Source: Polaromonas vacuolata
GTDB taxonomy: Bacteria > Pseudomonadota > Gammaproteobacteria > Burkholderiales > Burkholderiaceae_C
NCBI RefSeq assembly: GCF_012584515.1
Contig: NZ_CP051461.1
Location: forward strand, 1,528,501 to 1,592,500
Reading direction: 5' to 3'
DNA length: 64,000 nucleotides
A program made the translations under genes and the position numbers. How positions within the stretch are numbered: position 1 is the stretch's first letter; every line of letters begins with the position of its first letter. The notes beneath the pieces are model-generated. The model had not been told where the DNA came from. It searched no databases and saw only the letters and a list, made by a program, of their open reading frames with translations. This document shows, piece after piece, positions 4,952-38,028 of the stretch.

Positions 4952-4978
4952 GTCCGGTTTCTTGCCTTGAAAACCGGA
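4952..4978. repeat. 27-bp hairpin repeat, copy 1
   Basis: Inverted repeat TCCGGTTT / AAACCGGA with a 10-base spacer CTTGCCTTGA; the whole 27-base block is identical to 7067-7093. It lies between the Mor-like stop and the start of the gpW-like gene. No U-run follows, so it is not an ordinary intrinsic terminator. Confidence 0.85.
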
Positions 4979-7066: not shown

Positions 7067-7093
7067 GTCCGGTTTCTTGCCTTGAAAACCGGA
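7067..7093. repeat. 27-bp hairpin repeat, copy 2
   Basis: Exact copy of 4952-4978 (TCCGGTTT, 10-base spacer, AAACCGGA). It lies between the portal stop (7063) and the capsid start (7119). Confidence 0.85.
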
Positions 7094-10988: not shown

Positions 10989-11366
10989 ATGTTTGTTGTC
11001 ACATCTAAACCCACCTTTGTCGCCCCAGTAGCGGCAAATATTCCTGCCGATGGCGGAAAGTTCACAAAGGTGAAGTTCAGCGTAGTTTTTAAAGCGCTGG
11101 AAAAAGAAGAAATCGACGAGCTGCTAAAACGCATCCGCCAAAGCGCAAAAGCGGTACGTGAAGACCCTGAAGCCGGCCAGCTCAAAGACCGTGAAGTGCT
11201 TGATGAAGTGCTAGTCGGCTTCGGTACAGATTTGGTCGAGGAAGACCGCACGCCGATGGAATTTTCTGCCGCCAATGTTGACCGCCTGTGCAGCATTTAT
11301 CCGCTTGAGTCGGCGATGGTTAAGAGCTTTTTTGATAACTACGTAAACGGCCCCGCAAAAAACTAA
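10989..11366 (+). CDS. Tail assembly chaperone G
   Basis: 125 residues. The N-terminal part is beta-rich (TFVAPVAANIPADGGKFTKVKF), followed by helices with KALEKEEIDELLKRI, matching the G-type tail chaperones found between tail tube and tape measure. The last three codons before the stop are GCA AAA AAC, which contain an in-phase slippery heptamer A AAA AAC at 11357-11363. Most ribosomes should stop at 11364-11366 giving G; a minority should slip into the -1 frame and make GT. As in lambda, G and GT would coat the tape measure during tail assembly. Confidence 0.7.
   Translation: MFVVTSKPTFVAPVAANIPADGGKFTKVKFSVVFKALEKEEIDELLKRIRQSAKAVREDPEAGQLKDREVLDEVLVGFGTDLVEEDRTPMEFSAANVDRLCSIYPLESAMVKSFFDNYVNGPAKN
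11357..11363 (+). promoter_or_regulatory. Programmed -1 ribosomal frameshift site (A AAA AAC)
   Basis: The heptamer fits X XXY YYZ in the reading phase of the G gene and lies immediately before its TAA stop. The -1 frame is open from 11363 to the stop of the downstream T region at 11767, with no intervening stop codon. Confidence 0.75.
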
Positions 11367-23963: not shown

Positions 23964-24000
23964 ATCTGTCCTTTTGTTTTGGCCAAACGCATTGCGCCTA

Positions 24001-24135
24001 AGCCGGTCTGTGAGGTAGATGCCTTCTTACGAAGGACACCTATCCTGGGTCGGCCGTCCGAAGACGGCACGAACACGAACCTGGAGCAGTTGTGCATAGG
24101 CAGTCTTTTGCAACTGCCATGCGGTACCCACACTT
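24001..24135 (-). ncRNA. Structured leader, candidate c4/CI-like antisense regulatory RNA
   Basis: On the minus strand upstream of the helicase-like gene this 135-base segment holds several stable hairpins: GCATGGCAGT region (24094-24122), GCCGTC-UUCG-GACGGC at 24053-24068 with a UUCG tetraloop, and CCTTC / GAAGG at 24022-24035. It runs into the gene's own ribosome-binding site. Small structured RNAs (P1 c4, P4 CI) occur as leaders of phage replication or antirepressor operons, and control them by base pairing that stops transcription. The match is inferred from position and structure, not from a computed alignment. Confidence 0.4.
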
Positions 24136-24170
24136 CTTACTGGAGTGTTTTTTGACTTTTTAAAGAACGT

Positions 24171-24196
24171 AGTTGGCTCAATTTCTTGAGCCAACT
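24171..24196. repeat. Perfect 11-bp inverted repeat upstream of the structured leader
   Basis: AGTTGGCTCAA (24171-24181), loop TTTC, TTGAGCCAACT (24186-24196). It lies about 35 bp outside the candidate leader RNA in AT-rich sequence, and could be a promoter operator for it; there is no T-run, so it is not a terminator. Confidence 0.7.
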
Positions 24197-24490
24197 TAGA
24201 TTATGTGACATGAACTACTGGAATTGATGATAAATAATTAATTTTATATAAATTGATTTATAGGTTTAAATTGATTTAAATGCAGTGGGCTAGCGCCGTA
24301 AGAAGGACTGACAGGGTGATTCACCCTTAGTCGACTATCACTGACGAAATTTAAAATAGGGAGGTTCTACGACCAACAGGCGTTACAACTTTTCTCTGCG
24401 GGTCAGTTATTCTTTTTTTTCGTCAACTAAATCTTGTTACTCCAAAACGAGGCAATTTATCGCTAAATGCTTTTCCATACGAGCTTTGAC
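24197..24490. other. AT-rich noncoding sequence
   Basis: No gene is supported. It is AT-rich (repeated TAAATTGATTTA motifs near 24245-24280) and includes a T8 run at 24413-24420. Probable promoter region for the structured leader on the minus strand, and possibly the prophage boundary; no attachment core can be identified without the left end. Confidence 0.4.
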
Positions 24491-24640
24491 TTGTTACACT
24501 GATTGATACACAGCCTTGTGTAACAACCTCTCGGAACCCGCATGTTTGCTGGGTATGGTGTGTGGCCAATGGCTCCCCATCAGCCACCCCATATAAAACA
24601 TTTAAACCCCGCTATCTTTTTGGTAGCGGGGTTTTTTATT
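24491..24640 (+). ncRNA. Candidate small RNA with intrinsic terminator
   Basis: A 9-bp inverted repeat TTGTTACAC / GTGTAACAA (24491-24499 and 24518-24526) is followed by GC-rich hairpins (GTGGC / GCCAC at about 24560-24588) and then a strong terminator. TTGACT at 24486-24491 with TACACA downstream at 24507 is a possible sigma-70 promoter, though the spacing (15) is short. No protein reading frame is convincing in it. A standalone sRNA or the end of a lost transcript are both possible. Confidence 0.3.
24604..24640 (+). terminator. Intrinsic terminator
   Basis: Stem AACCCCGCTA (24605-24614) and TAGCGGGGTT (24624-24633) with a nine-base loop, followed by a T-rich run TTTTTTATTTT. No coding gene ends directly upstream; it may serve the candidate RNA before it. 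Confidence 0.85.
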
Positions 24641-24676
24641 TTGTGTGAATTATTTCTTGAATTGCTGGTATTTATT

Positions 24677-24695
24677 TTTAGGCAACTTGCCTAAA
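24677..24695. promoter_or_regulatory. Palindromic operator-like site
   Basis: TTTAGGCAA-C-TTGCCTAAA, a perfect 9-bp palindrome around a single base. It lies about 75 bp upstream of a fragment of an XRE-type regulator gene, the place where such regulators usually bind to autoregulate. Confidence 0.5.
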
Positions 24696-24770
24696 GGCCG
24701 TCATAGCAACAGATGAATGTTCGGCTAGTCCTGCTCTGCTGGTATCTTGCTACTGAGCTGCTGGCATTGA

Positions 24771-24887
24771 GAATATGGCAAACAAAAGCAGATCGATGCT
24801 GCGCTGCTCTCTGGTCTTTCGCACAACACTGTTTATCAACTCGAGAAGGGTGAACCTGGCTTTATTGCCTCAGGATTTGGTCACTAA
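24771..24887 (+). pseudogene. Fragment of an XRE/HipB-like HTH regulator, cut by a repeat
   Basis: Codons from 24771 read GKQKQIDAALLSGLSHNTVY followed by QLEKGEPGF, a clear XRE-type helix-turn-helix (recognition helix SHNTVYQLEKG). The frame passes without a new start into the repeat core at about 24863 and ends at TAA 24885-24887. The upstream part of the gene is degraded (a TGA at 24768 and frame change; ELLALRI is in another frame). HipB-type antitoxins have this form. It is a remnant, not a functional gene. Confidence 0.6.
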
Positions 24888-24920
24888 CGGCGAGCATTTG
24901 AGTAGATGTCCCTTTTGTCC
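24863..24920 (+). repeat. Half copy of the GGGACATCC repeat family (core plus right end)
   Basis: Contains core TTGCCTCAGGATTTGGTC and right end TAGATGTCCCTTTTGTCC. The left end is missing; the left border coincides with the truncation of the XRE gene fragment. Confidence 0.75.
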
Positions 24921-24970
24921 TATTAACGTAAAAAATAATACTTCTAAAGGAGTTTTCGACAACCGCTTTG

Positions 24971-24995
24971 CATCACTAACGTGGATGTCCCGTTT
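24971..24995 (+). repeat. Right end of the GGGACATCC repeat family
   Basis: CATCACTAACGTGGATGTCC followed by CGTTTG. The first 21 bases are identical to 31303-31323. It lies inside the C-terminal coding end of the CoiA-like gene and is inverted relative to the end at 29939. Confidence 0.75.
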
Positions 24996-25575
24996 GTTTT
25001 TTTTGGGTGCTTACCCCGCCTGACGGCAAGTCCGAAACGTCAAATTCCACCGCCATGCCATAGTTTCGATGCAACCGTTGCAGCTTCTCCGCGTCGACAG
25101 CATGCGAGTAACGCACTTCGAGGGCCAGCTTTCCGGTGTCCTCGCGTGTAAACACGACATCTGGCTGAACGCAGTCACCCCGGACCTCGGTTTCAGAACC
25201 GGTGAAAACAAATTTCTCCGCCGGAATATGGAGAAATTCGGGGACCACTTGGCCCAAGAAATCGAGTTCGCAGGAAACAACCACTGCAGGAACCTCTAAA
25301 GTCTTTCGACGGGCGAGCTCGTCCCGAACGAATGCGTGCAGCAGAGTCATTGGTTGAGGGTTGCAGTTCGCGTCCTCGACATGATGCTGGAAGTGCCAGG
25401 CTTTCTGTACGCCCAAATGCGCCTGCAACTGACGACCGCACTCCGGGCACACGCACCCACACCGCAACCCACGTTCATGGGTCTCGTCCAAGTCGAGCAC
25501 ATGGAGTAGTCGTCCGTCGCGGCGACCGTAAGCGAAGCTGGCTGGCATCTTTTGCCATTGTCGGCGAATCGCCAT
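24976..25575 (-). CDS. CoiA-like nuclease, C-terminus replaced by a repeat end
   Basis: The frame is open from 25719; I prefer an internal ATG at 25575 (or 25548) because residues before it have no family character. A four-cysteine/histidine motif occurs at RCGCVCPECGRQLQAHLG followed by WHFQHH, as in competence protein CoiA and related nucleases. The C-terminal part contains QPDVVF, LALEVRYSHAVDAEKLQRL, a PD-(D/E)xK-like arrangement with E-x-R where CoiA usually has E-x-Q. The last residues (STQKKQTGHPR) are encoded by the repeat end at 24971, so the true C-terminus is lost. The gene is divergent from the predicted defence operon with 138-280 bp between starts and may once have been part of it. 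Confidence 0.5.
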   Translation of the reverse strand: MAIRRQWQKMPASFAYGRRDGRLLHVLDLDETHERGLRCGCVCPECGRQLQAHLGVQKAWHFQHHVEDANCNPQPMTLLHAFVRDELARRKTLEVPAVVVSCELDFLGQVVPEFLHIPAEKFVFTGSETEVRGDCVQPDVVFTREDTGKLALEVRYSHAVDAEKLQRLHRNYGMAVEFDVSDLPSGGVSTQKKQTGHPR

Positions 25576-25857
25576 CCGGGAGTTCGGCGAACCGTTGACC
25601 ATCTCTGGCAACATTCGGCCAATTGCAAACATTACGCCGATAAGCAGGATTTGCCAGCGTTTGCAGTCGCTGAATGATTGCAATGGGCCCATTGCTGTTA
25701 TTCGGGTTTCTGCGGCCATCGTCTACTTCGCAGCGAAAGCGAACCTTCGTCGGCTCCCATTGCTGGACGGACACCGCCCGAAGTCGATGTCTCGGGAAAG
25801 CACGCCTTCGCGTGATATAAACTAATTAACAAAATTAAACGCGTTCAAGGAGGCCGT

Positions 25858-26631
25858 GTGCCAATACACCTAACTCCGTTTGTCCACGACCCTTTATGGG
25901 GCGGCAACACATGGTCGGTGCCGAATGACGATGAACTAGCAAGCTGGATTGCTTGGGTTGCAGTAGGGCAAGCGCATCACATTGCGACCATCCTGCACGC
26001 GGCGATGCCCAGTGGGCCGCTTCCAACAAACGCCGACGCCAAGGCGGACGCAATTGCACTGCTGACCCAGGCGGGGGCGGACCCCTCTCACCGTGATGGT
26101 TGGATGTTTCAGGTCATGTCGTGGCTCGCAGCCCATAGGAATACCCCCGGCGCGCTTATCGCGCTTCCACATCTAATTCATGCGGAAAAGGGGCTAGATG
26201 GCTTAGAAATACTGCTTGATGCGTCCCATGCAGTCGTCGCGACAGTAATTTTTGAGGACAAGGCGACCAAGAACTCTCGCAAGACGATACGCGAGGACGT
26301 GTGGCCCGAGTTCCAAAAATTTGAAACTGGGCTTGGTGTTAACAGGATGACACAGCAGGCTACCGGCATCTTGGCCGCCGCGCAGCATCCTGCCCCCTCT
26401 GAAGCAGCTTCGAAAATTGTTTGGAAGACTTCGCGTCGATATCGGGTAAGCATTACCGCGGAAAACAGCACACTCGACTCTCGAAAAAGCCTCTTCAAGG
26501 ACTATGAAACGACGGTCCCAGGGGTGATTGAAAGAAGAAGAGCTGAGGTTTTTGTTGTGGGTGACTTGAGAACGTGGATGGCGAAGCTCGCCACCAACTC
26601 CATCGCGCAGGTCAACGCCATGAATCACTAA
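25858..26631 (+). CDS. Predicted PD-(D/E)xK nuclease, HamA-like (Hachiman-type)
   Basis: 257 residues from GTG 25858, with a strong AAGGAGG seven bases upstream. The sequence is not strongly related to anything I can name with certainty. A nuclease-like motif is visible: LDGLEILLD (residues 113-121) followed by VIFEDKATKNSRKTIR (130-145), giving D/E and ExK catalytic positions (E133, K135). The C-terminal region (YRVSITAENSTLDSRKSLF) is beta-rich. The gene is 12 bp from a large SF2 helicase, the pairing of Hachiman (HamA nuclease and HamB helicase) and of AbpAB. HamA assignment is by motif and gene pairing. In Hachiman the nuclease is held inactive by the helicase until phage DNA damage is sensed. 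Confidence 0.5.
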   Translation: MPIHLTPFVHDPLWGGNTWSVPNDDELASWIAWVAVGQAHHIATILHAAMPSGPLPTNADAKADAIALLTQAGADPSHRDGWMFQVMSWLAAHRNTPGALIALPHLIHAEKGLDGLEILLDASHAVVATVIFEDKATKNSRKTIREDVWPEFQKFETGLGVNRMTQQATGILAAAQHPAPSEAASKIVWKTSRRYRVSITAENSTLDSRKSLFKDYETTVPGVIERRRAEVFVVGDLRTWMAKLATNSIAQVNAMNH

Positions 26632-26643
26632 AGGTGCCAGAAA

Positions 26644-29600
26644 GTGTTTGACCCGTCTACAGAAGAGCTGATTCGCCAAGCACCCTCGCTTGAGGGATTG
26701 GACAACGCACGTCTTTCGAGGGAGTTCACCAGAATCTACGCGACTGTGGTGGCCGCTCGGATGCGACTAAGAGACTTGGTATCGCAGACTGAGCAGAACC
26801 CCGAGGCGCGCGATAGGGCGCTCGCAGAGGTGCGCAAGGAGATGAAGTTCCTGGCGGAGCTGGCCAGTACGCAGGAAGCACTGATTTCGGTAAGTCCCTC
26901 GCGAGAAGACCGACGCTCAGCGGCCTTCGTAGCGGGTACCGCACACTATGTACTCTTGCAAGCGGAGCATCTCTTCGAAGACGCGCTGGCGTCGCGTCTT
27001 GCCGTGGACTACGTCTCGCCTGAAATCTCCGCAACTATTCTTTTCCTTATCGCTGGTGCGAGCGCTGATGCGGCGGAAATGGCCAAGGAGATTCGCGAAG
27101 ACCTATTGGAGCGGAACCTTCATCGCGGCCAACTGTTGAACGCAATTAGAGACTTTGCCAGAGGCGAGCTTGAGGCCATACAGCCCCAAACTCAGTTCGA
27201 CAATAGCGCCCGCGACGGAAGAGCACCAACAGACCGAGCCACTGATGCCCTATACCACCTGCTCTACAACGGTCTTGCAGATTTATCCGCACAGATGCGC
27301 GGTGAGCAGAATAGTGCAAGCTCCGTAAAATTCGCACGGGTGGAAAGTCTTTGCTCATTCCAAGTTGTGCAGAATTCTGCGCTTCCTATAGTAAACGTTT
27401 ATTCCGGGCCGCGGCATCTGGCGGTATTGCTCAAGATTCTTGCAAATGACTTCCCTGAAGCAAGTGTCGCAAACCTTACGCCCCCGGGGGGGAGCGACCC
27501 CGCTCGCTGGTTAAAGGGGGTGCGCTATATATCGCGTCGACGGCCATACCTTTGGTCGAATCACCTTGACGCGATACGCAGCGGGTATCTAGAAGCTGGG
27601 ACTTCGGCGGCAATCAGCTTCCCCACCGGCGCAGGAAAATCCACGCTATCTGAGCTGAAAATTCTGGCAACACTCGGCAAGTTAAGAGATGTCGTATTCT
27701 TGGCGCCCACCTTGTCACTTGTCGACCAAACCGCTAGGGTACTCGATGACGCGTTCCCTGACGCCGACGTTGAGCGGGAATACGCCAGCGACGACCCTTT
27801 CGGTTTCGATGCAGTTCGACTCCCGTCCATCACCGTCATGACTCCGGAACGGTGCCTAGCACTCATGGGATTCGAGCCTAAGCTCTTCGAGAGCGTGGGC
27901 CTCATTGTTTTCGACGAATGTCATCTACTTCACGCCATCGACGCTGAGCGAAACCAGCGCGCCATTGACTCCATGTTTTGCGTTCTCAATGCGGTCGAAT
28001 TAGCGCCCGACGCGGACATACTGATGCTGTCCGCAATGATGAGTAACGCAACCGAAATAGCGGGCTGGCTGCAGAGCATCCTGAACAGAAGGTGTTTAGC
28101 GCTTTCCATGAATTGGAAGCCAACTCGGCAAGTCCGAGGCTGTCTGGTCTATCCGCGCTCGGAAGTGACTGCTCTATCGACCTTGGCCCAGGCGTTGAAA
28201 AAAACTACGGCCGCGAAATTGCCGACGAAGAAGATAGTCGGGCAGATGCTGTCACGCCCGCAGGGATTCTTCGGGCTAAAGCAGACGTGGGATACGAAAA
28301 ACCGTTCCGACTACGCTTTGCTGGCACTGTTGGAGCAGCCTGTGCAACTGGCGCTCAACAAGCATTGGAAGCTGACACCGAACGCAAATAACGTGTCTTC
28401 GGCGATTAGCGCCGCCGCAGTTGACCAAGGCTCTGGAAAGATTCTGAAGACGCTCATCTTCTGTCAGACGACGGTTAACGCGAACAGCACGGCCGAAAGT
28501 ACAAGAATGCGACTTGGCGAATATGCAATTCCGCTGAATCAGCAGGAACGCGAACTGTTTGATTTAGCTCTGCAAGAACTGGGAGACGTCAGCTGCCTTT
28601 ACATTGAGACCTCTCCAAATAAAGAGGTCACTTCATCAGCGCTCCCACATCACGCTAGGCTTCTGTCTGCAGAACGACATTTGCACGAATCTCTATATCG
28701 TCGTAAAGATGGAATTCATGTCTTGGCGGCAACATCGACGCTAGCGCAAGGCATGAACCTGCCTAGTCAAATTGTTTTAATTGCGGGAGACAGCAGATTC
28801 GATGCGGCCAAAAATCAGCTTGAAAGGCTTCAAGCGCATGAATTATTGAATGCTGCTGGTCGGGCCGGCCGTGCTGGTGAAAACTCGTATGGTTTCGTCC
28901 TCGTTATTCCAAGCAAGGTAGTCTTCTTCGACGATAAAGACGGTCTTATTCACAACCATTGGACGAGCCTTAGGGAAATTTTCTCGCAAGCGGACCAGTG
29001 TCTCGCAATTGAGGACCCGCTAGCACCAATTTTGGATGCTATCCATCTTCATGAAGAGAATTATCCCGCGTCTGACTATTTTTTGCGCCGACTCCCGGTG
29101 GGGGAGACGGAGGAATTGACTGAATCCAAGTCAAAGACGTTACTCTCGCGCACCTTCAATGCATACCGTAGAGGCGTCGCGGGCGACGCGCAATGGCTTG
29201 ATTCTCGAATGACGTCGGCCCTCAATGCCAAGAAGCGACTTTCTGACTCCGACGAAAAATCGGATTGGGCCAACGTCCTTGCCGCGAAATTTGGCATCGA
29301 GCCGAATACATTGAGGTCGTTAGAAAACCACCTTCAGACTCCTCCTGCGGAGACGTCTGTTGTCGGCTGGGTTCGATGGCTTTTTGATTGGCTCGAGGCA
29401 AATCCAATGGCGTTCCTCGGAATGGTTCGACAGGAGGGGCTTGAGACATTGTTCGGAAAGCCGTACTTGGACTTGAAGACCGCTGAAGAGCGCGGCCCTT
29501 TTGCACTTAAGCGGCTGTACCCTCTACTGAAATCCTGGATGGAGGGCGAGACGTTCGTTCTTATGGAAAAGGTGTACGACCCAGGTATTACTAAGCCGAA

Positions 29601-29928
29601 AAAGTGCGAGAACACACGCGATTTTGTTCTACGCGTACTCCCAGACCTTGCGTATATCGCCTCCTTGCCTGAACTCGTTCGTCGCGCGAGCGATTCATTG
29701 GACGAGTCGTGGTTGGAACTGGAACGCATGAGTGGATGTGTCCGAGACGGGCTGGACACGCTAGAGAAGCTTGCCCTGTACCAAGTGCGTGGCAAATCCG
29801 GCGCTCGCATCGCATGTCATGACGCTTGGCGTGTCTGTTCGTTCTGGACCGCCGAGCCTGCCAACAACGAAGACTGGAAGGCGCTGCGCACGAGAGTTAA
29901 GGATGGTTGGGAGGAGTGGCTCAAGTGA
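26644..29928 (+). CDS. SF2 (Ski2-like) helicase, HamB-like, of a defence pair
   Basis: 1,094 residues from GTG 26644. The first ~300 residues are helical and unlike standard helicases. Helicase motifs follow in order: Walker A FPTGAGKSTLSELK (about residue 325), Walker B VFDECHLLHA (about 421), SAMMSN, FCQTTVNA (about 604), ATSTLAQGMNLP (about 695) and NAAGRAGRAGENS (about 735). Motif VI and the GRAGR form are typical of the Ski2/Hel308 branch. The remaining 350 residues are unassigned. With the upstream nuclease this forms a compact two-gene operon, flanked by repeat ends at both sides. HamB of Hachiman is a Ski2-like DNA helicase; other nuclease-helicase systems (for example AbpAB) cannot be excluded. 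Confidence 0.65.
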   Translation: MFDPSTEELIRQAPSLEGLDNARLSREFTRIYATVVAARMRLRDLVSQTEQNPEARDRALAEVRKEMKFLAELASTQEALISVSPSREDRRSAAFVAGTAHYVLLQAEHLFEDALASRLAVDYVSPEISATILFLIAGASADAAEMAKEIREDLLERNLHRGQLLNAIRDFARGELEAIQPQTQFDNSARDGRAPTDRATDALYHLLYNGLADLSAQMRGEQNSASSVKFARVESLCSFQVVQNSALPIVNVYSGPRHLAVLLKILANDFPEASVANLTPPGGSDPARWLKGVRYISRRRPYLWSNHLDAIRSGYLEAGTSAAISFPTGAGKSTLSELKILATLGKLRDVVFLAPTLSLVDQTARVLDDAFPDADVEREYASDDPFGFDAVRLPSITVMTPERCLALMGFEPKLFESVGLIVFDECHLLHAIDAERNQRAIDSMFCVLNAVELAPDADILMLSAMMSNATEIAGWLQSILNRRCLALSMNWKPTRQVRGCLVYPRSEVTALSTLAQALKKTTAAKLPTKKIVGQMLSRPQGFFGLKQTWDTKNRSDYALLALLEQPVQLALNKHWKLTPNANNVSSAISAAAVDQGSGKILKTLIFCQTTVNANSTAESTRMRLGEYAIPLNQQERELFDLALQELGDVSCLYIETSPNKEVTSSALPHHARLLSAERHLHESLYRRKDGIHVLAATSTLAQGMNLPSQIVLIAGDSRFDAAKNQLERLQAHELLNAAGRAGRAGENSYGFVLVIPSKVVFFDDKDGLIHNHWTSLREIFSQADQCLAIEDPLAPILDAIHLHEENYPASDYFLRRLPVGETEELTESKSKTLLSRTFNAYRRGVAGDAQWLDSRMTSALNAKKRLSDSDEKSDWANVLAAKFGIEPNTLRSLENHLQTPPAETSVVGWVRWLFDWLEANPMAFLGMVRQEGLETLFGKPYLDLKTAEERGPFALKRLYPLLKSWMEGETFVLMEKVYDPGITKPKKCENTRDFVLRVLPDLAYIASLPELVRRASDSLDESWLELERMSGCVRDGLDTLEKLALYQVRGKSGARIACHDAWRVCSFWTAEPANNEDWKALRTRVKDGWEEWLK

Positions 29929-29938
29929 CCGGTAAAAA

Positions 29939-30055
29939 TAAAAGGGACATCCACGTTCAGCACAAATAAAAGGGACATCCACGTTCAGCACTGCCCAATT
30001 ATTGCCTCAGGATTTGGTCCGCAGTGGCGACCGGTAGCATAGAAGTCCCTTTTGT
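29939..30055 (+). repeat. GGGACATCC repeat: tandem left ends plus a full short copy
   Basis: Two direct copies of a left end, AAAAGGGACATCCACGTT plus CAGCAC, at 29939-29963 and 29967-29991. The second begins a complete short copy with core ATTGCCTCAGGATTTGGTC and right end GAAGTCCCTTTTGTC (about 29967-30055). The first lies 10 bp after the helicase stop. Confidence 0.8.
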
Positions 30056-30350
30056 CCATTGCGCTGCATCAGCCGGGCTTGAGACTTCATGGAGGTCTGC
30101 CGGACCATCAAGGTAAGCATCAACGCGGGCAGTCTTTAATGCCCTTTCAAAGCCCGAGACGCACTATTTTGGTCGGCGCGACAAAACGATTTCAAAAACT
30201 CAGTCTGGATGAAAAAAGTGCTGATATTTATGCCTGAAGCGAATCTTGGCTAAAACTTTATTCAAATTGACTTTTTTGATTCGTTGTACAAGCTCGTTCA
30301 TAAAGTTTTATGTTCAAATTGAATGAAAAAAACAGTAAAAAATCCATCAA
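30056..30350. other. Noncoding stretch before the AbiE pair
   Basis: About 295 bp. A 61-codon frame at 30052-30237 ends RFQKLSLDEKSADIYA but starts in the repeat and resembles nothing I know; it could be the end of a lost gene. The AT-rich 70 bp before 30351 probably holds the AbiE promoter. Confidence 0.4.
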
Positions 30351-31097
30351 ATGGGAACTTCACAAAGTTTATTATTCCGGCAAGTACTAATCGATCTTCC
30401 TCGGGGCACTCCGATGACGACGGCGACATTGAGCAAGCACGGTATTCAGGCCAAGCAGGCTGCACGTCTGGCTGCGACTGGGTGGCTCCAACGATTGGGG
30501 CACGGGGTGTACTTGCTGCCTGGCGACAAACTTGACCGCGACGCCAGCCTGGCCGCGCTGGCACAACTCTCCCCCGGTATGCATGTTGGTGCCAAAACCG
30601 CGCTGGCGTGGTGGGGAGTGCGCCACAACCTAGGCATCGGGCCAGCGATGACGCTGTGGGGTGAAAAGCCCATGACGCTTCCTGCCTGGTTTGTGACGTC
30701 CTTTCCCGCTCGCTATCAGGTCACTCATCTTTTTGATGCAGCAATGCCCGCAGATCTTGGGCTGGCGACTGTGCCAGCCGGCAGAAGCGATGTGCTGGTC
30801 TCGACACCGGAGCGGGCCATGCTCGAACTTCTCAGCGACGTGGGCAAACAGCAAGGGCTTGAGGAGGCCCGCAATTTGTTAGAGGCAATCCGCACACCGA
30901 GGATGCCAGTTCTGGAACAGCTTTTCTCTCACCTGACCCGAATCAAGGTCGTCCGTCTTGCTGCTGATCTTGCAGAGGATTTGGATCTGCCCTGGATGGG
31001 AATGGCTCTTAGACACAGCCAACGGCTGGGCGGCGGCAGTCGTTGGGTGTCGAGCACGAAAACCGGTGATCGGCTGGATTTGAGGCGCCCCAAATGA
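30351..31097 (+). CDS. AbiEi-type antitoxin / transcriptional regulator
   Basis: 248 residues. The N-terminal winged-helix has TLSKHGIQAKQAARLAATGW followed by LQRLGHGVYLLPG, the typical AbiEi antitoxin start; the C-terminal part has a basic MALRHSQRLGGGSRW end. AbiEi proteins autorepress and antagonise the AbiEii nucleotidyltransferase toxin by type IV action. The stop overlaps the AbiEii ATG (ATGA), the normal arrangement. Start ATG 30351 has no strong ribosome-binding site; the ATG at 30414 would remove part of the wing. The antitoxin appears intact. Confidence 0.75.
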   Translation: MGTSQSLLFRQVLIDLPRGTPMTTATLSKHGIQAKQAARLAATGWLQRLGHGVYLLPGDKLDRDASLAALAQLSPGMHVGAKTALAWWGVRHNLGIGPAMTLWGEKPMTLPAWFVTSFPARYQVTHLFDAAMPADLGLATVPAGRSDVLVSTPERAMLELLSDVGKQQGLEEARNLLEAIRTPRMPVLEQLFSHLTRIKVVRLAADLAEDLDLPWMGMALRHSQRLGGGSRWVSSTKTGDRLDLRRPK

Positions 31098-31333
31098 ATC
31101 AAGATTACGCCCGCACGGTACAACTGCTGCTTGCCGTTGCTCCCGACGTTTTTCACAGTCCTGTGTTTGCCATGAAGGGCGGCACGGCGCTCAATCTGTT
31201 CGTGCAAGACATGCCTCGGCTGTCGGTCGACATTGATCTGGTCTTTGTACCCCACGACCAACCGCGTGAAGAAGCCTTGAGGACGATCGCCCAGGCGCTC
31301 AACATCACTAACGTGGATGTCCCTTTTGCCTGA
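31094..31333 (+). pseudogene. AbiEii-type nucleotidyltransferase toxin, truncated to its N-terminus
   Basis: Only 79 residues remain of a family usually near 300. The nucleotidyltransferase core is present: FAMKGGTALNLFVQDMPRL followed by SVDIDLVFVP (GG-T and D-x-D motifs). The coding sequence runs into the repeat end at 31303, which supplies the final residues NITNVDVPFA. Later motifs and the C-terminal half are missing, so the toxin should be inactive while the antitoxin remains. Truncation by the repeat is seen directly; loss of function is inferred. Confidence 0.8.
31303..31330 (+). repeat. Right end of the GGGACATCC repeat family, truncating AbiEii
   Basis: CATCACTAACGTGGATGTCC followed by CTTTTGCC. 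The first 21 bases equal 24971-24991. No core is attached. Confidence 0.75.
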
Positions 31334-31686
31334 AGGTATGCCAACCAACCCTATATAAATCAACAGGTTACGCGCGGACGAATCAATCCGTTTTTTTTTG
31401 TGGCGTTGGTAGGGTGAGGAGATAGCGCGTATTCCCAATCAGTCATCGCAGATATTTCGACCATAGGCCGTGACCAACTCGGTGTGGGCGTTCCGTGAGC
31501 ATTGATTTATGACCTGTTTGCAGCGGGAGCTGACATCGGCGTTGGTCCACTGAGGGCAAGTACCGGCCATTAGTAGTCGTTTAAATTCCGATCCACCAGT
31601 CATCGCATCTTGCGCAGATGCTTCTGCCGTTACAGTCCGGTACTAAGCAATTAAGTTGTATATTTGAAAAGTTACTGGAGGTTACT
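31334..31686. other. Noncoding stretch between AbiE and the UvrD-like gene
   Basis: About 350 bp with a T9 run near 31390. A 43-codon minus-strand frame (31439-31570) with several cysteines (MAGTCPQWTNADVSSRC) is visible but has no ribosome-binding site or neighbour to support it. A GGAGG before the TTG at 31687 marks the next gene. Confidence 0.4.
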
Positions 31687-33291
31687 TTGAAGTTAATCAA
31701 CGTCTCACGAGATCAAAAATATCTTTACATCCAGACCGACGAAGGAAGCAGGAAGCAGTCTCTGAATTGGCGTGGCGTCGATCAACTAGAAAAGAAATGT
31801 CGATCATTAATTGGTCACGAAATTATTCACACGACATCTGGAGCGTGGGACAAAGATGTTTGGTTCCAGGATGTCACACTCAATAAAGCTGCGCAGAACG
31901 TTGTTCCTATAGGCTCTGATTCGTCTATGTCGTTCGATGGCCAATTTTCACTTGGCAAGACGTGGGCATCAAGGTCTGTCAGACGCATCTATGGACCACC
32001 AGGCACAGGAAAGACAACCAAGCTGGTGAATATCGCCAAGGCGGCCATTGAGGGGGGGATTCGCCCCGAAGATATTGGCTACTTTGCCTTCACCAATGTG
32101 GCGGCAGATGAGGCGCGAGATCGAATTGCGAACAATCTTGACCTAGAGCCTGCACGATTTGCAAATTTCTCAACACTGCATAGTCTCACTACCAGAATGG
32201 GGGGGAACGAGGGCAAGAGCCTTTGCCAGAAAGAGCATCTACAGCGCTTTGACTCCAACATCGGCACGCGAGAGGAATGGCTTCGAGCTGGGGATCCGTT
32301 TAGTGTCGTCGTAAGACCTGAACACCCTGTACTCAGTCAGTACAGCATCATGTTCAACCGCAAGCAACAGAAGCCCACCTTCGAAGGTAAGTCACTGGAT
32401 GATGCCCTGAGCATCCTGAGTCGCTATTACGGTCTGATCATCGACACATCAAGGGTTGCAGAATTCACAGAAAAATACTTTCAGGAATACGAATTCTTCA
32501 AGAAGTCAAACAACTTAGCTGACTTCAACGATGTGATTTTCTCGGTCGCGAAGGCGTCCTTTCCCGCAGAGAAGATTCCAACTTTTGAGCTCCTTATCAT
32601 CGATGAGGCCCAAGACTTGAGCGCCTTACAGTGGGATGTTGTCACGAAGCTCTCCAGCAAGGCGAAAGAGACCATCATTGCCGGAGACGACGATCAGGCG
32701 ATCATGGAATCTTTTGGTGCTGCGCCGCACCTGTTCAACGAGTTTCCAACGACAGTCCCCGATGAGGTTCTACCCGTTTCGTATCGCCTCCCGCGGAACA
32801 TCAAGAACTTCGTCGACAAGCACGTTGTTCCCAAGCTAGGAAATCGTTCGGATCGCAAGCATAAGGAGTGGTCCGAGAACGTTGATGCCATAGACGATGG
32901 GGAGGTGATTCGTTCGATCACAAAAAAGGCCATAAATCCCTCGGACAAGCCAGTGCCTGAGCCACTGAGCATCAACAAGCTTCTCAGAATAATTGAAGCT
33001 TTTAAGGACGAAGAGTGGCTAATCATGGCTCCCACACGAGCTACGTGCAATCAGATCTCTACTGGATTGGCTGCACTCAAAGTCCCACACTTCTGCCACC
33101 GACAAGACGTCTTGGGGACAGACAACAAAATTCACGTTCAAACTATCCACACATCAAAGGGTATGGGATCGGATAACGCCGCGCTCGTATCAGTATCGCG
33201 CGGCGACAGCTTCCTGCTGGATAAGGACGCCAGACTGCTTTACGTTGCTTTGACCCGAGCCAAGAAGAGACTCTTCATCGCAAACCGATAA
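31687..33291 (+). CDS. UvrD/Rep-like SF1 helicase, single gene
   Basis: I chose TTG 31687 because GGAGG lies five bases upstream (31677-31681); ATG 31618 has no such site. This gives 534 residues. SF1 motifs: Walker A YGPPGTGKTTK (about residue 102), AFTNVAADEARDR, Walker B LLIIDEAQDLS (about 302), GDDDQAI (about 333), VSYRLPRNIK, HTSKGMGSDNAALVS (about 485) and YVALTRAKKRLF (about 518). The size and lack of accessory domains fit short UvrD-like helicases such as GajB of Gabija or others of defence islands. No OLD-type GajA gene is adjacent, so it is an orphan or a truncated system. The function is 3'-5' DNA unwinding by family. Confidence 0.75.
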   Translation: MKLINVSRDQKYLYIQTDEGSRKQSLNWRGVDQLEKKCRSLIGHEIIHTTSGAWDKDVWFQDVTLNKAAQNVVPIGSDSSMSFDGQFSLGKTWASRSVRRIYGPPGTGKTTKLVNIAKAAIEGGIRPEDIGYFAFTNVAADEARDRIANNLDLEPARFANFSTLHSLTTRMGGNEGKSLCQKEHLQRFDSNIGTREEWLRAGDPFSVVVRPEHPVLSQYSIMFNRKQQKPTFEGKSLDDALSILSRYYGLIIDTSRVAEFTEKYFQEYEFFKKSNNLADFNDVIFSVAKASFPAEKIPTFELLIIDEAQDLSALQWDVVTKLSSKAKETIIAGDDDQAIMESFGAAPHLFNEFPTTVPDEVLPVSYRLPRNIKNFVDKHVVPKLGNRSDRKHKEWSENVDAIDDGEVIRSITKKAINPSDKPVPEPLSINKLLRIIEAFKDEEWLIMAPTRATCNQISTGLAALKVPHFCHRQDVLGTDNKIHVQTIHTSKGMGSDNAALVSVSRGDSFLLDKDARLLYVALTRAKKRLFIANR

Positions 33292-33562
33292 CCGGACATC
33301 CAACCTCTGCAACTGATGGAAACAATCGCTGCATATCAAGCGTCAAGCGTCAAGCGTCAAGCGTCAATCGGCTGAGCGCGAACGACTGCAAAGGGGCGGC
33401 CACTGCCGGTCATAGGCCAACAGCGATGGTCTGCTTCCAGCCTGAAACGGAATTACGCGTTGCACGATTCAGCAACAGTTCTTGGCCGACAGAAGGTAAA
33501 GATATTGCAAACTTGATCGACTGATCATCCACTTAAATTAAGTCTTCATGGCGCTTTGAACC
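33292..33562. other. Noncoding stretch with a short tandem repeat
   Basis: About 270 bp. The only structure seen is (TCAAGCG)4 at 33336-33363 followed by TCAA. No gene is supported. Confidence 0.4.
33336..33367 (+). repeat. Tandem 7-bp repeat (TCAAGCG x4)
   Basis: Four consecutive TCAAGCG units followed by TCAA. Too short and without spacers, so not a CRISPR array. Confidence 0.8.
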
Positions 33563-33570
33563 TAGTCAAA

Positions 33571-33948
33571 TTAATGGACAGCAGAGTCCTCAAAAGATTG
33601 GTAATACAGATTTTCAAAGTTAAGTGGGCTTAGCCAGCCAACGGTTGAATGCCTGCGAATGCGATTGTAATAAGCCTCTATGTATTCAAAGACTGCCTGC
33701 TTAGCTAGCTCTCGGGTTGCAAAGTATTCACCGTGAATAGCTTGCTTTTTCAGTGTGGCGAAGAATGATTCTGCTACGGCGTTAAATGGCGTACTCCAAC
33801 AATTTTCGCGTCTACTCATGCTTAGAATAAGTAAACTTTCTCTGAGTATTTTGCGGTACGCGTTCGACACGTATTGCGATCCCTGATCGGTGTGAACCAT
33901 CGCGCCAGTAGGTTTTCCCCTGGTAAGAATGGCCACAAAAGGGACATC
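33571..33948 (-). pseudogene. IS3-family transposase (orfB), C-terminal fragment
   Basis: About 120 residues of the integrase (rve) domain: MVHTDQGSQYVSNAYRKIL, with the second catalytic D, NAVAESFFATLKKQAIHGEY containing the catalytic E, and YNRIRRHSTVGWLSPLNFE, the common C-terminal signature of IS3 orfB. The first D and the DNA-binding part are missing, because the coding sequence runs into a repeat left end at about 33950. The remnant cannot transpose by itself. Confidence 0.85.
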
Positions 33949-34024
33949 CACGTTTAGCACTGCGCAACTATTGCCTCAGGATTTGGTCATTAATGGCGAT
34001 CATCAAGATAGATGTCCCTTTCGT
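33935..34024 (+). repeat. Full short copy of the GGGACATCC repeat, inserted in the IS
   Basis: Left end ACAAAAGGGACATCCACGTT, core CTATTGCCTCAGGATTTGGT and right end GATAGATGTCCCTTTCG. Span about 90 bp. It breaks the transposase gene. Confidence 0.8.
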
Positions 34025-34351
34025 CTTCCACTTTAATTTCGCGCATTGCTAAAAGTGGTTGCTTGCTTTGGATGTCCCTTTGTTAGCTCCAAGCTTGAAG
34101 CGTACTTAAAGACAATTTATGCTATGAAGCGTGGCAGCGAACTTATTTAATCCAGTGAAAGTTGGCATGTGTTTTAAACCACGTTATTCATCGATTTCTA
34201 AGACACAAACTAAAACCAGATTCTATCGATCACAAGAAAAGAGTCAGCCACGTTAATAGCGCCGTTGCGGGGAAAATCCTGAGGCGATATTTGCGCGTGC
34301 TAAACATGGACGTGCTTTTTTGGAAGTCCCTTTTATTTCCTTTTTATTTTT
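34025..34351. other. Degenerate sequence inside the IS remnant
   Basis: About 330 bp with two more degenerate repeat ends (GGATGTCCCTTTG at 34070-34082; GCTAAACATGGACGTGC and TGGAAGTCCCTTTTA at 34299-34335). No convincing transposase N-terminus or other gene is recognised; an open frame at 34162-34413 crosses the IS end and is unlikely to be real. Confidence 0.4.
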
Positions 34352-34374
34352 TGCTGTTCATTAATTTGACTAAA

Positions 34375-34698
34375 TCTAGTTACCCACGTGGCCCCATGAC
34401 AGGGATGAACTGATGGGTTGGTTGACGTTCTACAACTACTAGAAATTGCACTCAACATTGCTCTACGTCAGCTCAATAATGTTTGATAGATCACTGTATC
34501 GCGGCCCAGCAACAAGTAAGGATGTCAGTAAGTCCGCATAATGAGTAGCTATGAAGTATGGAAAACAGGGGCAAGATCAGTTGTCCAGAGGACACGCCGC
34601 TGGATCGCCCTACGGCAAGACACAGGATTGGTGGCCGCCGCCCTGCGTTTAATTACCGTTGAATAATTTCCTGAAACATTAAATGAATATGTATACCT
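34375..34698. other. Noncoding stretch before the dioxygenase gene
   Basis: About 320 bp without a supported gene. The AT-rich last 50 bp probably contain the promoter of the dioxygenase gene. Confidence 0.4.
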
Positions 34699-35826
34699 AT
34701 GAATATAACGACTCTTACGGCCCGTACCGACACGCTTGTCGTGACTTGGACTGACAGCACCAGCACACCTTTTCCAACCATCTGGCTGCGCGATAATTGC
34801 CCCTCTGGTTTGCATGCAGAAACCCATGAGCGCTTGCTCGATCTGCTGTCAATTGACGAAGCACCAATCCTAACGTCGGCCGCAATTGACGGCGAAACAG
34901 CCGTGCTGATCTATGCCGATGGTCATATTAGCCGCATGCCTATTTCATTGTTGAACGCGCATCGTCCGGGCCAATCAAGATTTGACGCTGCCGACATATC
35001 TGCGCAGCATTGGCGTGCAGATCACGGTGCGGCAAACATCTCACGTCACGCGGCTGCCTTCATTCTTGCAGACGATTTTGCGCTTAAAAACTGGATGCAA
35101 GACACTGCAAAATTTGGTTTAACAATCGTTGACCAGCTACAAGATCGTACAAATGCAGGTGTCGAGATTGCTGAACGGATCGGCTTTTTACGGATCACAA
35201 ACTTCGGATCCACATTTGAGGTCGTCAATAAACCCGATCCAAACAACCTTGCCTACACTTCAGTTGCTTTGCCCCTTCACACCGATTTGCCCAACCAAGA
35301 AGTGCCTCCAGGTTATCAATTCTTGCATTGCTTGGCCAACGAAGCTGTGGGTGGGGGATCGCTGTTTGCGGATGGTTTTGCGATGGCTGAGGACCTTAGG
35401 ATTGAAGATCAAGAGGCGTTTCAGCTGTTGTGCGACGTCGCTATTCCTTTCCGTTTTCATGATGAAAATGCGGATATTGGAGTTTATAGACCAGTCATCA
35501 CGCTTGGATCTAAAGGCGAAGTCATCGAGATCCGCTACAACGCGCATTTGGCTGGCATTTTCGACATGCCTGCTGAGATCATGCCTGCCTATTACCGTGC
35601 TTACCGAGCCTTTATGGCCAAAACACGAGATCCAAAATACCGCCTCACATTGAAATTGAAAGCGGGCGAGATGGTCGTATTCGATAACCGGCGCGTTCTG
35701 CATGGACGGGATGCTTTTGATCCATCCACAGGATTTCGGCACCTTCATGGATGCTATGTAGACCGGGGTGAATTCTTTTCGCGTCTGCGGCTATTGATGC
35801 ACGAAACTGACGTTGCCATTGCATAG
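34699..35826 (+). CDS. Gamma-butyrobetaine hydroxylase-like 2-oxoglutarate/Fe(II) dioxygenase
   Basis: 375 residues. The N-terminal domain (residues about 10-90) has WLRDNCPSGLHAETHERLLD, the GBBH-like zinc-binding N-domain. The catalytic TauD-like domain carries the iron triad in LPLHTDLPNQ (H194, D196) and LHGRDAF (H335), with a basic RLRLL patch near the C-terminus for 2-oxoglutarate binding. Such enzymes hydroxylate gamma-butyrobetaine to carnitine or trimethyllysine; in bacteria many act on other betaines. It is bounded by repeats (IS end upstream, short repeat at 35907 downstream) and is not in an operon with neighbours, suggesting it was acquired or stranded. Confidence 0.8.
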   Translation: MNITTLTARTDTLVVTWTDSTSTPFPTIWLRDNCPSGLHAETHERLLDLLSIDEAPILTSAAIDGETAVLIYADGHISRMPISLLNAHRPGQSRFDAADISAQHWRADHGAANISRHAAAFILADDFALKNWMQDTAKFGLTIVDQLQDRTNAGVEIAERIGFLRITNFGSTFEVVNKPDPNNLAYTSVALPLHTDLPNQEVPPGYQFLHCLANEAVGGGSLFADGFAMAEDLRIEDQEAFQLLCDVAIPFRFHDENADIGVYRPVITLGSKGEVIEIRYNAHLAGIFDMPAEIMPAYYRAYRAFMAKTRDPKYRLTLKLKAGEMVVFDNRRVLHGRDAFDPSTGFRHLHGCYVDRGEFFSRLRLLMHETDVAIA

Positions 35827-35906
35827 CAATTTCATAAGTAAACATATTAATGTCACTCGAAATAGTGTGAACTAACTTTGCCTTTGGCGCCGAAAACCAT
35901 AATATA

Positions 35907-36004
35907 AATGGCATCCACGTTCAGCACTCCGTTTAGAACTATGCAACTATTGCCTCAGGATTTGATTAATAACGACGACCATTAACATGGATGTCCCGCT
36001 TGTC
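35907..36004 (+). repeat. Full short copy of the GGGACATCC repeat
   Basis: Left end AATGGCATCCACGTTCAGCA (a diverged form), core CTATTGCCTCAGGATTTGAT, right end TTAACATGGATGTCCCGCTT. About 98 bp, in the gap between the dioxygenase and hydrolase genes. Confidence 0.75.
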
Positions 36005-36084
36005 TTTTTTTGTCATTAAGTTCTGATGAAACAAATTTGCCTGAAAGTTCAGGCGGTCTTTCTAACCCAACAAAAGGAAACCCA

Positions 36085-36573
36085 ATGAAAAAAGCATTGA
36101 TCGTTATCGATATTCAGAATGATTACTTTCCTGGTGGCGCGTTCACTTTGGAAAATGCCGACGAAGCTTGCAAAGGTGCTGTGGAGGCCATTGAGCAAGC
36201 GAAACGCGATGGCTGGCTGGTGATAGGGGTGCAGCACGTCAGCACTCCAGATTCCCCCCTTTTCAAGCCCGATACCGAAGGTGTGAAAATTCACAGCGCT
36301 GTCGCTGCCGCATTGGGTGATGCGCCCATCGTCGTAAAAAGTGAAGCCGACAGTTTCTTCAAAACGAATTTGGAGCAAATCGTGCGCGACGCTGGCATCA
36401 CCGACCTTTATCTCACCGGCATGATGACCCAGCACTGCGTTACCCACACGGCTCTGTCCTCGCAAGCGCGCGACATGAAGGTTCACATCATCGCCAAAGG
36501 CTGTGCCGCCCCCGCCAAAGCCTTGAGCGACCTGGCCCTGCAAGGTCTGAGCGCTCGCTGTCGCGTGGAGTAG
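36085..36573 (+). CDS. Isochorismatase-family cysteine hydrolase
   Basis: 162 residues from ATG 36085, preceded by AAAGGAAA. Family residues are visible: D9 in LIVIDIQNDYFPGG, K85 in IVVKSEADSFFKTN and the nucleophilic C118 in GMMTQHCVTHTALSS. Members hydrolyse amides or ester-like bonds of small molecules (nicotinamidase, isochorismatase, ureidosuccinase-like). The C-terminal end (LALQGLSARCRVE) is short compared with the usual 175-190 residues, so it may be slightly truncated. The substrate cannot be told. The open frame extends upstream to 36010 but lacks support. Confidence 0.8.
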   Translation: MKKALIVIDIQNDYFPGGAFTLENADEACKGAVEAIEQAKRDGWLVIGVQHVSTPDSPLFKPDTEGVKIHSAVAAALGDAPIVVKSEADSFFKTNLEQIVRDAGITDLYLTGMMTQHCVTHTALSSQARDMKVHIIAKGCAAPAKALSDLALQGLSARCRVE

Positions 36574-36623
36574 AACAAATCCTTACGTGATATCGAGTTC
36601 TAGCAAGCCCTGCGTAGCTAAGC

Positions 36624-36713
36624 GCAAAAGGGACATCCCTTTTTAATATTGCGCAACTATTACCTCAGGATTTGGTCATTAACGGCGACCATCAACATGG
36701 ATATCCCTTTTGC
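36624..36713 (+). repeat. Full short copy of the GGGACATCC repeat with clear inverted ends
   Basis: Termini GCAAAAGGGACATCC (36624-36638) and GGATATCCCTTTTGC (36699-36713) form a 15-bp inverted repeat with one mismatch. Core CTCAGGATTTGGTCATTAAC and right-side GCGACCATCAACATGG. About 90 bp. Confidence 0.85.
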
Positions 36714-36789
36714 CTTTTTAATGACGGCAAATATAAAAATAATATACGCTGCACTTTTTCGACATTTAGCTTGAGCGCACGATTAAGCC

Positions 36790-37509
36790 TCACGGCCATA
36801 CCGGATCGCTTTGCACCCATAGCTGCTCGTAGGTTGTTTGAACCGCGATAAATGCGTCAGTAATTTGCGTAAGGGAAGTGGGCGCTTTTTTGATTCCATT
36901 TTTGAAGGAAGCGCCTGATTGGTAGCACGACACCTTGTCGACCAGCACGTAGCGATCATTAAATCCAATCGCACTTCGAATTTCAATCTCTATCTGTGCT
37001 TGTGCCGCAAACACTTGTATGGCGGGGCGCAGAGTTGGCAGTTTCTCGCGCGCTAGGATTCGCACTTTAGTACCGCGGGGAACGTGTGGAAGATACCGGC
37101 TGACAAAATCGGCATCGGTATAGGCGTCAATGAAGAACAAATCTAATTTTGCTGTTTTGATGAGTTGGCTTACTTCAGCGCAATAGTCAAAGGCATGCCC
37201 AGTTTGAACGCCGATGGAGATGGGCTCTGCGTTTTTAAGTCGCAGATTACTTTTAGCGTGATGAAGCTCAATAAGTAGCGCTCTGCGCTCAGTGCTGAAG
37301 TCGTAGTTTCCGGTCTTTGTGAGAATAAAGACGTGTGGTTCAAAGTGAATAATCGCTCTACAGGGGTCCCAGGCGTTCATCGTTGCGCTGGCGCGGCCAA
37401 GCCATGGAACACATAAATCCGGGTTGCCTGAGAAGTCTTGTAGCCGCGGGATTGATCGGATCACGTCTTCGATTTCGAACGCAAGCTGCTCGTCGGAGAT
37501 CTTTGTCAT
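36790..37509 (-). CDS. PLD-like domain protein with altered catalytic motif
   Basis: 239 residues. The C-terminal half has FNDRYVLVDKVSCYQSGASF (residues 183-202), the place of the H-x-K or H-D-R-x-x-x-x-D motif of phospholipase D-like proteins. The histidine is replaced by N184, so activity is uncertain; related small PLD-like proteins in defence islands keep HDR. The N-terminal 100 residues (FEPHVFILTKTGNYD etc.) are unassigned. Its ATG at 37509 overlaps the stop of an upstream minus-strand frame (TAATG), so it was the second gene of an operon whose first gene is now only a fragment. Confidence 0.55.
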   Translation of the reverse strand: MTKISDEQLAFEIEDVIRSIPRLQDFSGNPDLCVPWLGRASATMNAWDPCRAIIHFEPHVFILTKTGNYDFSTERRALLIELHHAKSNLRLKNAEPISIGVQTGHAFDYCAEVSQLIKTAKLDLFFIDAYTDADFVSRYLPHVPRGTKVRILAREKLPTLRPAIQVFAAQAQIEIEIRSAIGFNDRYVLVDKVSCYQSGASFKNGIKKAPTSLTQITDAFIAVQTTYEQLWVQSDPVWP

Positions 37510-37664
37510 TAAAGGCCTAACGGTTGGGGGCAGTTAAGAAATTCGCTCGCTTCTGGGTGAGCGTCAATTGAATGCAGGACTTTTTTCACGTGTTCAATAT
37601 GGTATTGATTGTGAGCCCAAGCATAGACAAAAAAATGACTAATCTTTTCTTTACAAAGTAGGTC
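37509..37664 (-). pseudogene. C-terminal fragment of a gene upstream of the PLD-like gene
   Basis: Minus-strand codons 37664-37509 read DLLCKEKISHFFVYAWAH followed by NQYHIEHVKKVLHSIDAHPE and end in TAA overlapping the ATG of the PLD-like gene (TAATG). The reading is protein-like with no start codon; upstream the frame is closed by TAA. The natural stop-start overlap implies that an upstream partner gene was lost, leaving 51 codons. I do not recognise the family. Confidence 0.5.
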
Positions 37665-38028
37665 TTAGTTGCATGGCTTGCTTGCTTCTGTGATGTCGTC
37701 GGTTGGGTAATTCAACACGTGCTCAGTTGCCGTCTCTGCTCATTAAAACGTATTCACCACGTTTCTAAATTTTCATTGTGGCGACAAAACTCAGTCTCGG
37801 CGTTGGACTCTACTTATTTCCATGGACACATTGGGCTTCTTGATTTCAATCCAAGACAATATGCTCAGTCGCGCCCCGGTCTTGGTCTTACACGTTCGCT
37901 GGGCAATGATCAAATAATCAAATTGACAATGAAACTCTCGGCCATGGTCTTGTCATACGCGTCCCCTTTGGTCCAAACCAAGCGATTCAACGCAGCTACC
38001 AACGCACCAGATGCGGTAAATTCAGACA
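37665..38028. other. Noncoding stretch before the two-component genes
   Basis: About 365 bp. A 110-codon frame starting 37719 overlaps the response regulator start and has biased composition, so I do not treat it as a gene. The boundary between the accessory region and ordinary chromosome probably lies here. Confidence 0.4.

Follow-up and report, generated by a model that had tools for sequence, protein, structure and literature searches.

A 64,000-nt stretch of the Polaromonas vacuolata chromosome (NZ_CP051461.1, positions 1,528,501 to 1,592,500; hereafter the window) carries an accessory region in which short repeats with a common 18-bp inverted end, AAAAGGGACATCCACGTT (T18), stand among broken genes; we relate these repeats below to a gene for a tyrosine (Y1) transposase elsewhere in the same genome. 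The repeat family is real: its core, ATTGCCTCAGGATTTGGTC (up to three mismatches), occurs five times in the window against 0.01 expected, and a 15-bp version of the end occurs 15 times against 1.44 expected. Full copies of the element that a first-pass annotation had described, here called type A, lie on the forward strand at 29968-30053, 33937-34022 and 36626-36711, with a longer variant at 35904-36001. The positions given in that annotation proved correct to a few bases and its partial copies were borne out at 24863, 24978, 29940, 31310 and 34065, but it overlooked an A-like element in the inverted orientation (34237-34334, reverse strand). The partial copy at 24863-24919 (forward) is the right part of an A element, its left half absent. 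Those at 24978-24995 (reverse, one mismatch) and 31310-31327 (reverse, exact) are solitary T18 ends, that at 29940-29957 (forward) is the extra T18, or "stutter" copy, of a 28-bp tandem duplication of flank and tip adjoining the full copy, and that at 34065-34082 (reverse) is a degenerate T18-like end outside the neighbouring A element.

The first-pass annotation placed these copies against four broken genes, and for two of them our searches agree. The AbiEii gene (31094-31309, forward) is truncated to its first ~70 residues and broken at the T18 that follows it; its 73 aa cover only profile positions 2-56 of 238 (1-69 of 290 in PADLOC). An IS3-family right-end remnant (33557-33934, reverse), with only positions 268-369 of 369 of the transposase present, is broken at an A element and has a 94% identical stretch elsewhere in the genome (L035 166-534). 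The supposed XRE piece exists as a 38-aa fragment that runs into the core of the A element at 24863, though it has no Pfam match, and the truncation of a CoiA-like gene was not established, the match lying below the cut-off (20.7 of 26.3 bits).

The same annotation saw the repeat nowhere else in the window, which is correct, but the rest of the chromosome carries it as well. At up to three mismatches, T18 has 32 matches (15 forward, 17 reverse) in the 3.84-Mb single-contig genome, compared with one forward and one reverse match for the reversed pattern, and besides the window these occupy seven further sites on the chromosome (~74, 118, 498, 886-895, 1059-1062, 1133-1137 and 2404-2408 kb), of which those at 74 and 118 kb hold one match each, with two and three mismatches, respectively. 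Pairs of T18s enclose imperfect palindromes of three internal types that share their ends: type A (86-98 bp; in an alignment of ten copies, six from the window and four from L036 at 880-900 kb), type B (~187 bp; L037 at 7996, 8738 and 10899) and type C (~133 bp; L039 at 8577). Constant ends around differing inner parts do not fit random fragments of one long annotated element. When folded, seven of nine elements can form long hairpins (z −1.6 to −3.3 against shuffles). The copies have diverged, look old and are probably now decayed.

Beyond this genome T18 itself is scarce. Although 55 of 86 congeners have at least one match, their counts are comparable with those of the reversed pattern (at most 4, with a control of 4), and a T18-like match with two mismatches occurs in only three of them (G036, G025 and G020); a stricter A-end pattern, applied to 149 relatives, returned five places in the own genome and one two-mismatch place in each of two others. 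Exact T18 had no match in IMG/VR viral contigs and six in GTDB r220 (84,980 species), in unrelated groups and close to the ~7 we estimate by chance, both collections being ones that possibly exclude the window's own genome or very near ones. Among PLSDB plasmids the 89-nt A consensus drew short, weak matches in 34 records, none spanning 80% of the query, and an Rfam scan of window positions 24000-38000 returned no families.

Outside the window, T18s stand 109 and 212 bp upstream of the start (L035 7944 and 8047) of a 385-aa gene at C1:496676-497833 (L035 6677-7834, minus strand). Its protein carries NHYH, FWE and YVDLNP, and its closest curated families are the REP-associated tyrosine transposases (RAYTs; REP, repetitive extragenic palindrome) of NCBIfam and Y1_Tnp of Pfam. 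On printed motifs, and on the length of its homologues, it would belong with TnpA_Y1 subclass 2.3, for which Table 1 of the 2018 classification prints the signature NHYH, WE and YVDLNP and whose members have a median length of ~325 aa (Quentin et al. 2018, PMC6006769); it is the sole gene of this kind in the genome. Among 80 homologues of at least 250 aa, NHYH is present in 64, FWE in 67 and YVDLNP in 78, and of 26 aligned homologues 17 match Y1_Tnp with an E value no higher than 0.01. Most homologues (74 of 88) have lengths of 309-351 aa; our protein is longer. The distribution is patchy, with several copies in some genomes, as described for subclass 2.3 (PMC6006769): 48 of the 369 class genomes, counting our own, carry a relative at E 1e-40 or better, and among the 86 congeners three have long matches (G069, cut by a contig edge; G036; and G020, with one in-frame TGA) and three more have short, weak ones.

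Our analysis revealed that these genes are commonly bordered by a motif that T18 contains. Within T18 lies GGACATCCAC, consistent with GGACAYCCAY, a pattern whose first Y was chosen to admit T18. With up to one mismatch, GGACAYCCAY occurs within 200 bp upstream, on the gene's strand, at 61 of 86 homologous loci (35 exact), whereas the inverted motif occurs at 5, the reversed pattern at 1 and 200 permuted motifs at a mean of 1.6 (largest 15); 43 of the 61 lie at −75 to −96. The inverted motif occurs within 400 bp downstream at 42 of 75 loci (19 exact), against 7 on the same strand, 4 for the reversed pattern and a mean of 2.6 for permuted motifs (largest 13), with 29 of the 42 at +172 to +221, and both ends are present at 35 of 73 loci. 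The C form by itself (GGACACC, exact) is found upstream at 34 of 86 loci (reversed pattern 2), and GGACACCCAC stands 75 and 70 bp ahead of the gene in congeners G036 and G020, respectively. These counts, to which Fisher tests were applied, draw on 88 loci (L100-L188 less L185, a duplicate of L128), of which 86 have at least 150 bp upstream and 75 have at least 350 bp downstream together with an open reading frame of at least 280 aa; start codons were placed by alignment to the query rather than by annotation, and further class matches, mainly short or without a 5' end, lie outside the count.

The association is specific with respect to one other Y1 family. The genome has a second Y1 gene (C1:3171910-3172605) with no good T18 nearby (best score 11.1 of 31.6), and among its relatives (30 loci of more than 150 matches) GGACAYCCAY occurs upstream at 0 of 28 loci and inverted downstream at 1 of 29. 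The motif GGGGWSAS, published as common to TIRYTs (PMC3733652), occurs there at 14 of 28 and 10 of 29 loci, respectively, but upstream at only 7 of 86 subclass-2.3-like loci. Since GGGGWSAS is found in this other family, the method recovers a known case, and the two Y1 families have a common layout with different motifs.

Copies of the motif away from the genes point in the same direction. In 42 genomes that carry a subclass-2.3-like gene (of 50 known carriers), exact GGACACCCAY occurs 837 times against 603 for the reversed pattern, compared with 439 against 682 in 38 non-carriers, which were chosen by hand from the listed rows rather than at random and are defined by the lack of a match at E 1e-10 (genus) or 1e-40 (class) with at most five candidates scored per genome. 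Twelve of the 42 carriers, but none of the 38 non-carriers, have the motif at least twice as often as its reversed control (rank test, p = 0.008). Inverted pairs without a gene, their motifs 51-111 bp apart, were found in six of the carriers, in no non-carrier and never with the reversed control; several of these pairs overlap one another, and two, in L200 and L209, lie in contig ends that share 99% identity over 174 bp and so may represent a single piece of DNA. In G499 a 5'-only gene copy (44 aa) lies within a 317-bp inverted pair (L192).

Several single T18s are located at breakpoints of genes and repeats. In a junction test on the fetched own-genome loci, 14 of 127 ends of other repeats lay within 25 bp of an element (rotation control: mean 2.7, largest 13, 0 of 2000 reaching 14), which we treat as supporting evidence only, since element limits were set by hand after the repeats were seen and 6 of the 14 ends belong to the RHS locus of L038. 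Truncated IS3 right ends adjoin elements at window position 33934, L036 5942 and L039 8555. At L038 8800-18921 shortened RHS pieces, interspersed with small genes, come after a long gene that we read as RHS (2012 aa), and the pieces are broken on their 5' sides at T18s (8879, 10292 and 12210); RHS_repeat was found in two pieces, and on the long gene the RHS sequences to either side of the 12210 T18 overlap by ~260 bp. In L037, a stretch of ~220 bp belonging to the 3' side of what we take to be polA (named by reading alone, no search made) stands on both sides of a segment bounded by type B elements (7761-7978 and 11093-11344; 90 and 81% identity in two pieces), a segment that also carries an IS30 copy. 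Congener G036 has two extra 5' ends of subclass-2.3-like genes, one of which, reading MTRPSSSLISLDDTPWYH, is truncated and starts 38 bp from a T18. Also in G036 (L095 9291-10173), AAAGGGGTCTGACCCCTTT palindromes resembling the TIRYT motif flank a gene that looks Y1-type by eye (no search made) and that sits between two shortened 5' ends of the subclass-2.3-like gene.

Taken as a whole, we think it probable that T18 represents, in this species, the motif at the ends of a subclass-2.3-like TnpA_Y1 (HUH/tyrosine, RAYT-like) element, that types A, B and C are its short derivatives, similar to REPINs or to miniature inverted-repeat transposable elements (MITEs), that solitary T18s are single ends at rearrangement junctions and that the 385-aa protein is most likely the cognate enzyme. 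By analogy with studied Y1 enzymes, this protein would act on single-stranded DNA, probably at the replication fork, cutting at the motif and joining the DNA again at another place. The palindromes of all three types, each bounded by two T18s, would then be non-autonomous derivatives that it mobilised, and the solitary T18s would be single ends left behind at junctions of its making.

A further pattern concerns the DNA bordering the ends. At 18 of 105 innermost motif sites the 9 nt immediately outside the motif recur exactly within 60 bp outward, compared with 0 of 105 for the 9 nt on the inner side and 2 of 333 for nearby control positions; the outer, inner and control counts are 33, 3 and 4 at up to one mismatch and 51, 22 and 41 at up to two. 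A few of the 33 outer repeats are simple A or T runs. In 17 of the 33 the flank copies are separated by 3-19 nt of tip sequence from the element itself (at least 10 nt in seven, i.e. a whole motif), and in 16 by 0 or 1 nt. In the own genome the outer repeat is found at 8 of 36 T18s (up to one mismatch) and the inner at 1 of 36; three of these outer repeats hold at least 3 nt of tip, including the 28-bp duplication at 29940-29985, which the first-pass annotation had taken for a partial copy. This repetition outside the end is seen in more than one species. Together with the 5'-only gene copies and the long flank duplications, this stutter suggests an insertion that starts at the tip and is able to abort and restart. 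We tentatively propose, as a possibility that we hold less likely than its opposite, that subclass-2.3 Y1 elements insert tip first and often abort: joining or copying would proceed into the element, over a few bases or up to a few hundred, return to the target flank and restart, leaving truncated tips, tandem flank-tip stutter and flank duplications of ~10 to ~250 bp, with accessory genes broken and rearranged. In open-licence PMC papers we found no description of such an insertion mode for HUH transposases.

The system resembles several that are known without matching any of them. The part of the 2018 classification that treats subclass 2.3 gives no REP sequences for it and describes it without evidence of mobility (Quentin et al. 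2018, PMC6006769), unlike the inverted end motif found here on both sides of many genes and its short derivatives; in open-licence PMC literature we found neither motif, derivatives nor stutter for this subclass. Alike in layout are the TIRYT/TIRtron elements, in which inverted repeats flank a Y1 gene without a REP hairpin and short relatives are dispersed (Di Nocera et al. 2013, PMC3733652); 20 of 26 TIRYT examples have been assigned to subclass 2.1 (PMC6006769). Here the end motif is GGACACCCA instead of GGGGWSAS, and the two-sided arrangement of TIRtrons is seen at the 35 homologous loci with both ends, whereas our own gene has the upstream side only. Like REPINs (Bertels and Rainey 2011, PMC3116915), the elements are RAYT-linked inverted doublets of a short end able to form a hairpin, but unlike them they exist as few, diverged copies, and some of their ends stand alone where genes are broken. 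On its complementary strand the motif has GTGG, as in the GT[AG]G foot of REPs, but by eye no small hairpin follows it. With an HUH Y1 (RAYT-like) gene as their associate, the repeats count as REP type, part of what the first-pass annotation had set against its own reading; their copy number is low, however, with 32 T18 ends (2 in the control) against REP copy numbers usually over 100 (PMC2817692).

Several observations weigh against our reading. Our 385-aa protein scores below curated cut-offs (18.7 of 23 bits for Pfam Y1_Tnp and 44.6 of 80 for NCBIfam) and its best PDB match is weak (E 0.16). The innermost upstream match of its gene is GGCCACCCAT at −64, with one mismatch, rather than a T18, the T18s lying farther out, which slightly lowers our confidence; no recognisable inverted downstream end was found at this gene, and a single gene would serve ~30 ends. 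Congener G025 has a T18-like match (two mismatches) but no such gene, and in G020 the match (also two mismatches) lies away from its gene. Across the class the upstream motif is absent at 25 of 86 loci and the inverted downstream one at 33 of 75, 30 of 42 carriers lack the twofold excess, part of the excess in carriers with several gene copies consists of gene flanks, and the rank test gives p = 0.054 without same-genus and same-family genomes (39 vs 13). Two of the nine folded elements are no better than shuffles (z −0.2 and +0.3), and two further truncated IS3 ends in L036 (9606-9682 and 16697-16795) have no neighbouring T18. In a junction test on the fetched own-genome loci, 14 of 127 ends of other repeats lay within 25 bp of an element (rotation control: mean 2.7, largest 13, 0 of 2000 reaching 14), which we treat as supporting evidence only, since element limits were set by hand after the repeats were seen and 6 of the 14 ends belong to the RHS locus of L038.

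The motif could instead serve to control the transposase gene, as an operator or a promoter-proximal site, with the dispersed copies being regulatory or terminator repeats rather than mobile ends. In several loci the upstream motif does stand directly before a TTGACA-like hexamer (by eye), and T18 pairs look like bidirectional terminators (A-run, stem, T-run). We nevertheless consider this unlikely: inverted copies downstream of the genes (42 of 75 loci) are expected of ends and not of operators, and gene-free inverted pairs, 5'-only gene copies that begin at the motif and breakpoints at T18 argue likewise.

Somewhat less likely still is a classical MITE family, in which the repeats would be non-autonomous and the DDE insertion sequence to which they are related would no longer have an autonomous copy in this genome. 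The MITE-like character proposed in the first-pass annotation is sound as to form, the elements being short and non-coding, with inverted ends, several length classes and internal sequences and a habit of abutting broken genes, and IS30 and IS3 pieces lie near several copies. The enzyme associated with them, however, is an HUH Y1 (RAYT-like) protein rather than a DDE transposase of the classical kind, the motif accompanies Y1 genes throughout a class, and no target-site duplication of fixed length, as would be looked for in the MITE of a DDE element, was seen by eye around the full A copies. The ends of IS30, read by eye from the boundaries of near-identical copies, are unlike T18, and IS30 was rejected as the source of the repeats on these end sequences.

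An integron-like cassette system, with A elements as recombination sites and single genes as cassettes, might account for the A copies at 35904 and 36626, which share an orientation and each lie on the 3' side of a single gene, and for the tips alternating with single genes in G499 contig 11, but it is very improbable: solitary ends and one inverted copy do not fit it, and it was rejected on site sequence, no pair of the integron consensus RYYYAAC/GTTRRRY being visible by eye at T18 borders (no integrase search was made).

Other features of the window deserve brief mention. A two-gene module at 25858-29928 has a second gene that matches HamB models (Hachiman defence helicase, best E 1e-31) and a first gene that occupies the place of HamA and has no Pfam, NCBIfam or PADLOC match. 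At 30351-36573 accessory genes stand singly or in pairs, one by one, between T18 elements in a cassette-like layout; they include AbiEi with the broken AbiEii, a UvrD-like helicase, a TauD-like dioxygenase and an isochorismatase, and the layout recurs in G499 contig 11 (L193). A 27-bp exact direct repeat at 4952-4978 and 7067-7093, ~2.1 kb apart, is unrelated to T18.

The two-sided end motif, its gene-free derivatives and the ends at gene breakpoints provide TnpA_Y1 subclass 2.3 with a substrate that can be tested in vitro. Should insertion indeed proceed tip first, elements of this subclass would give rise to truncated genes and to small duplications in accessory and defence regions.

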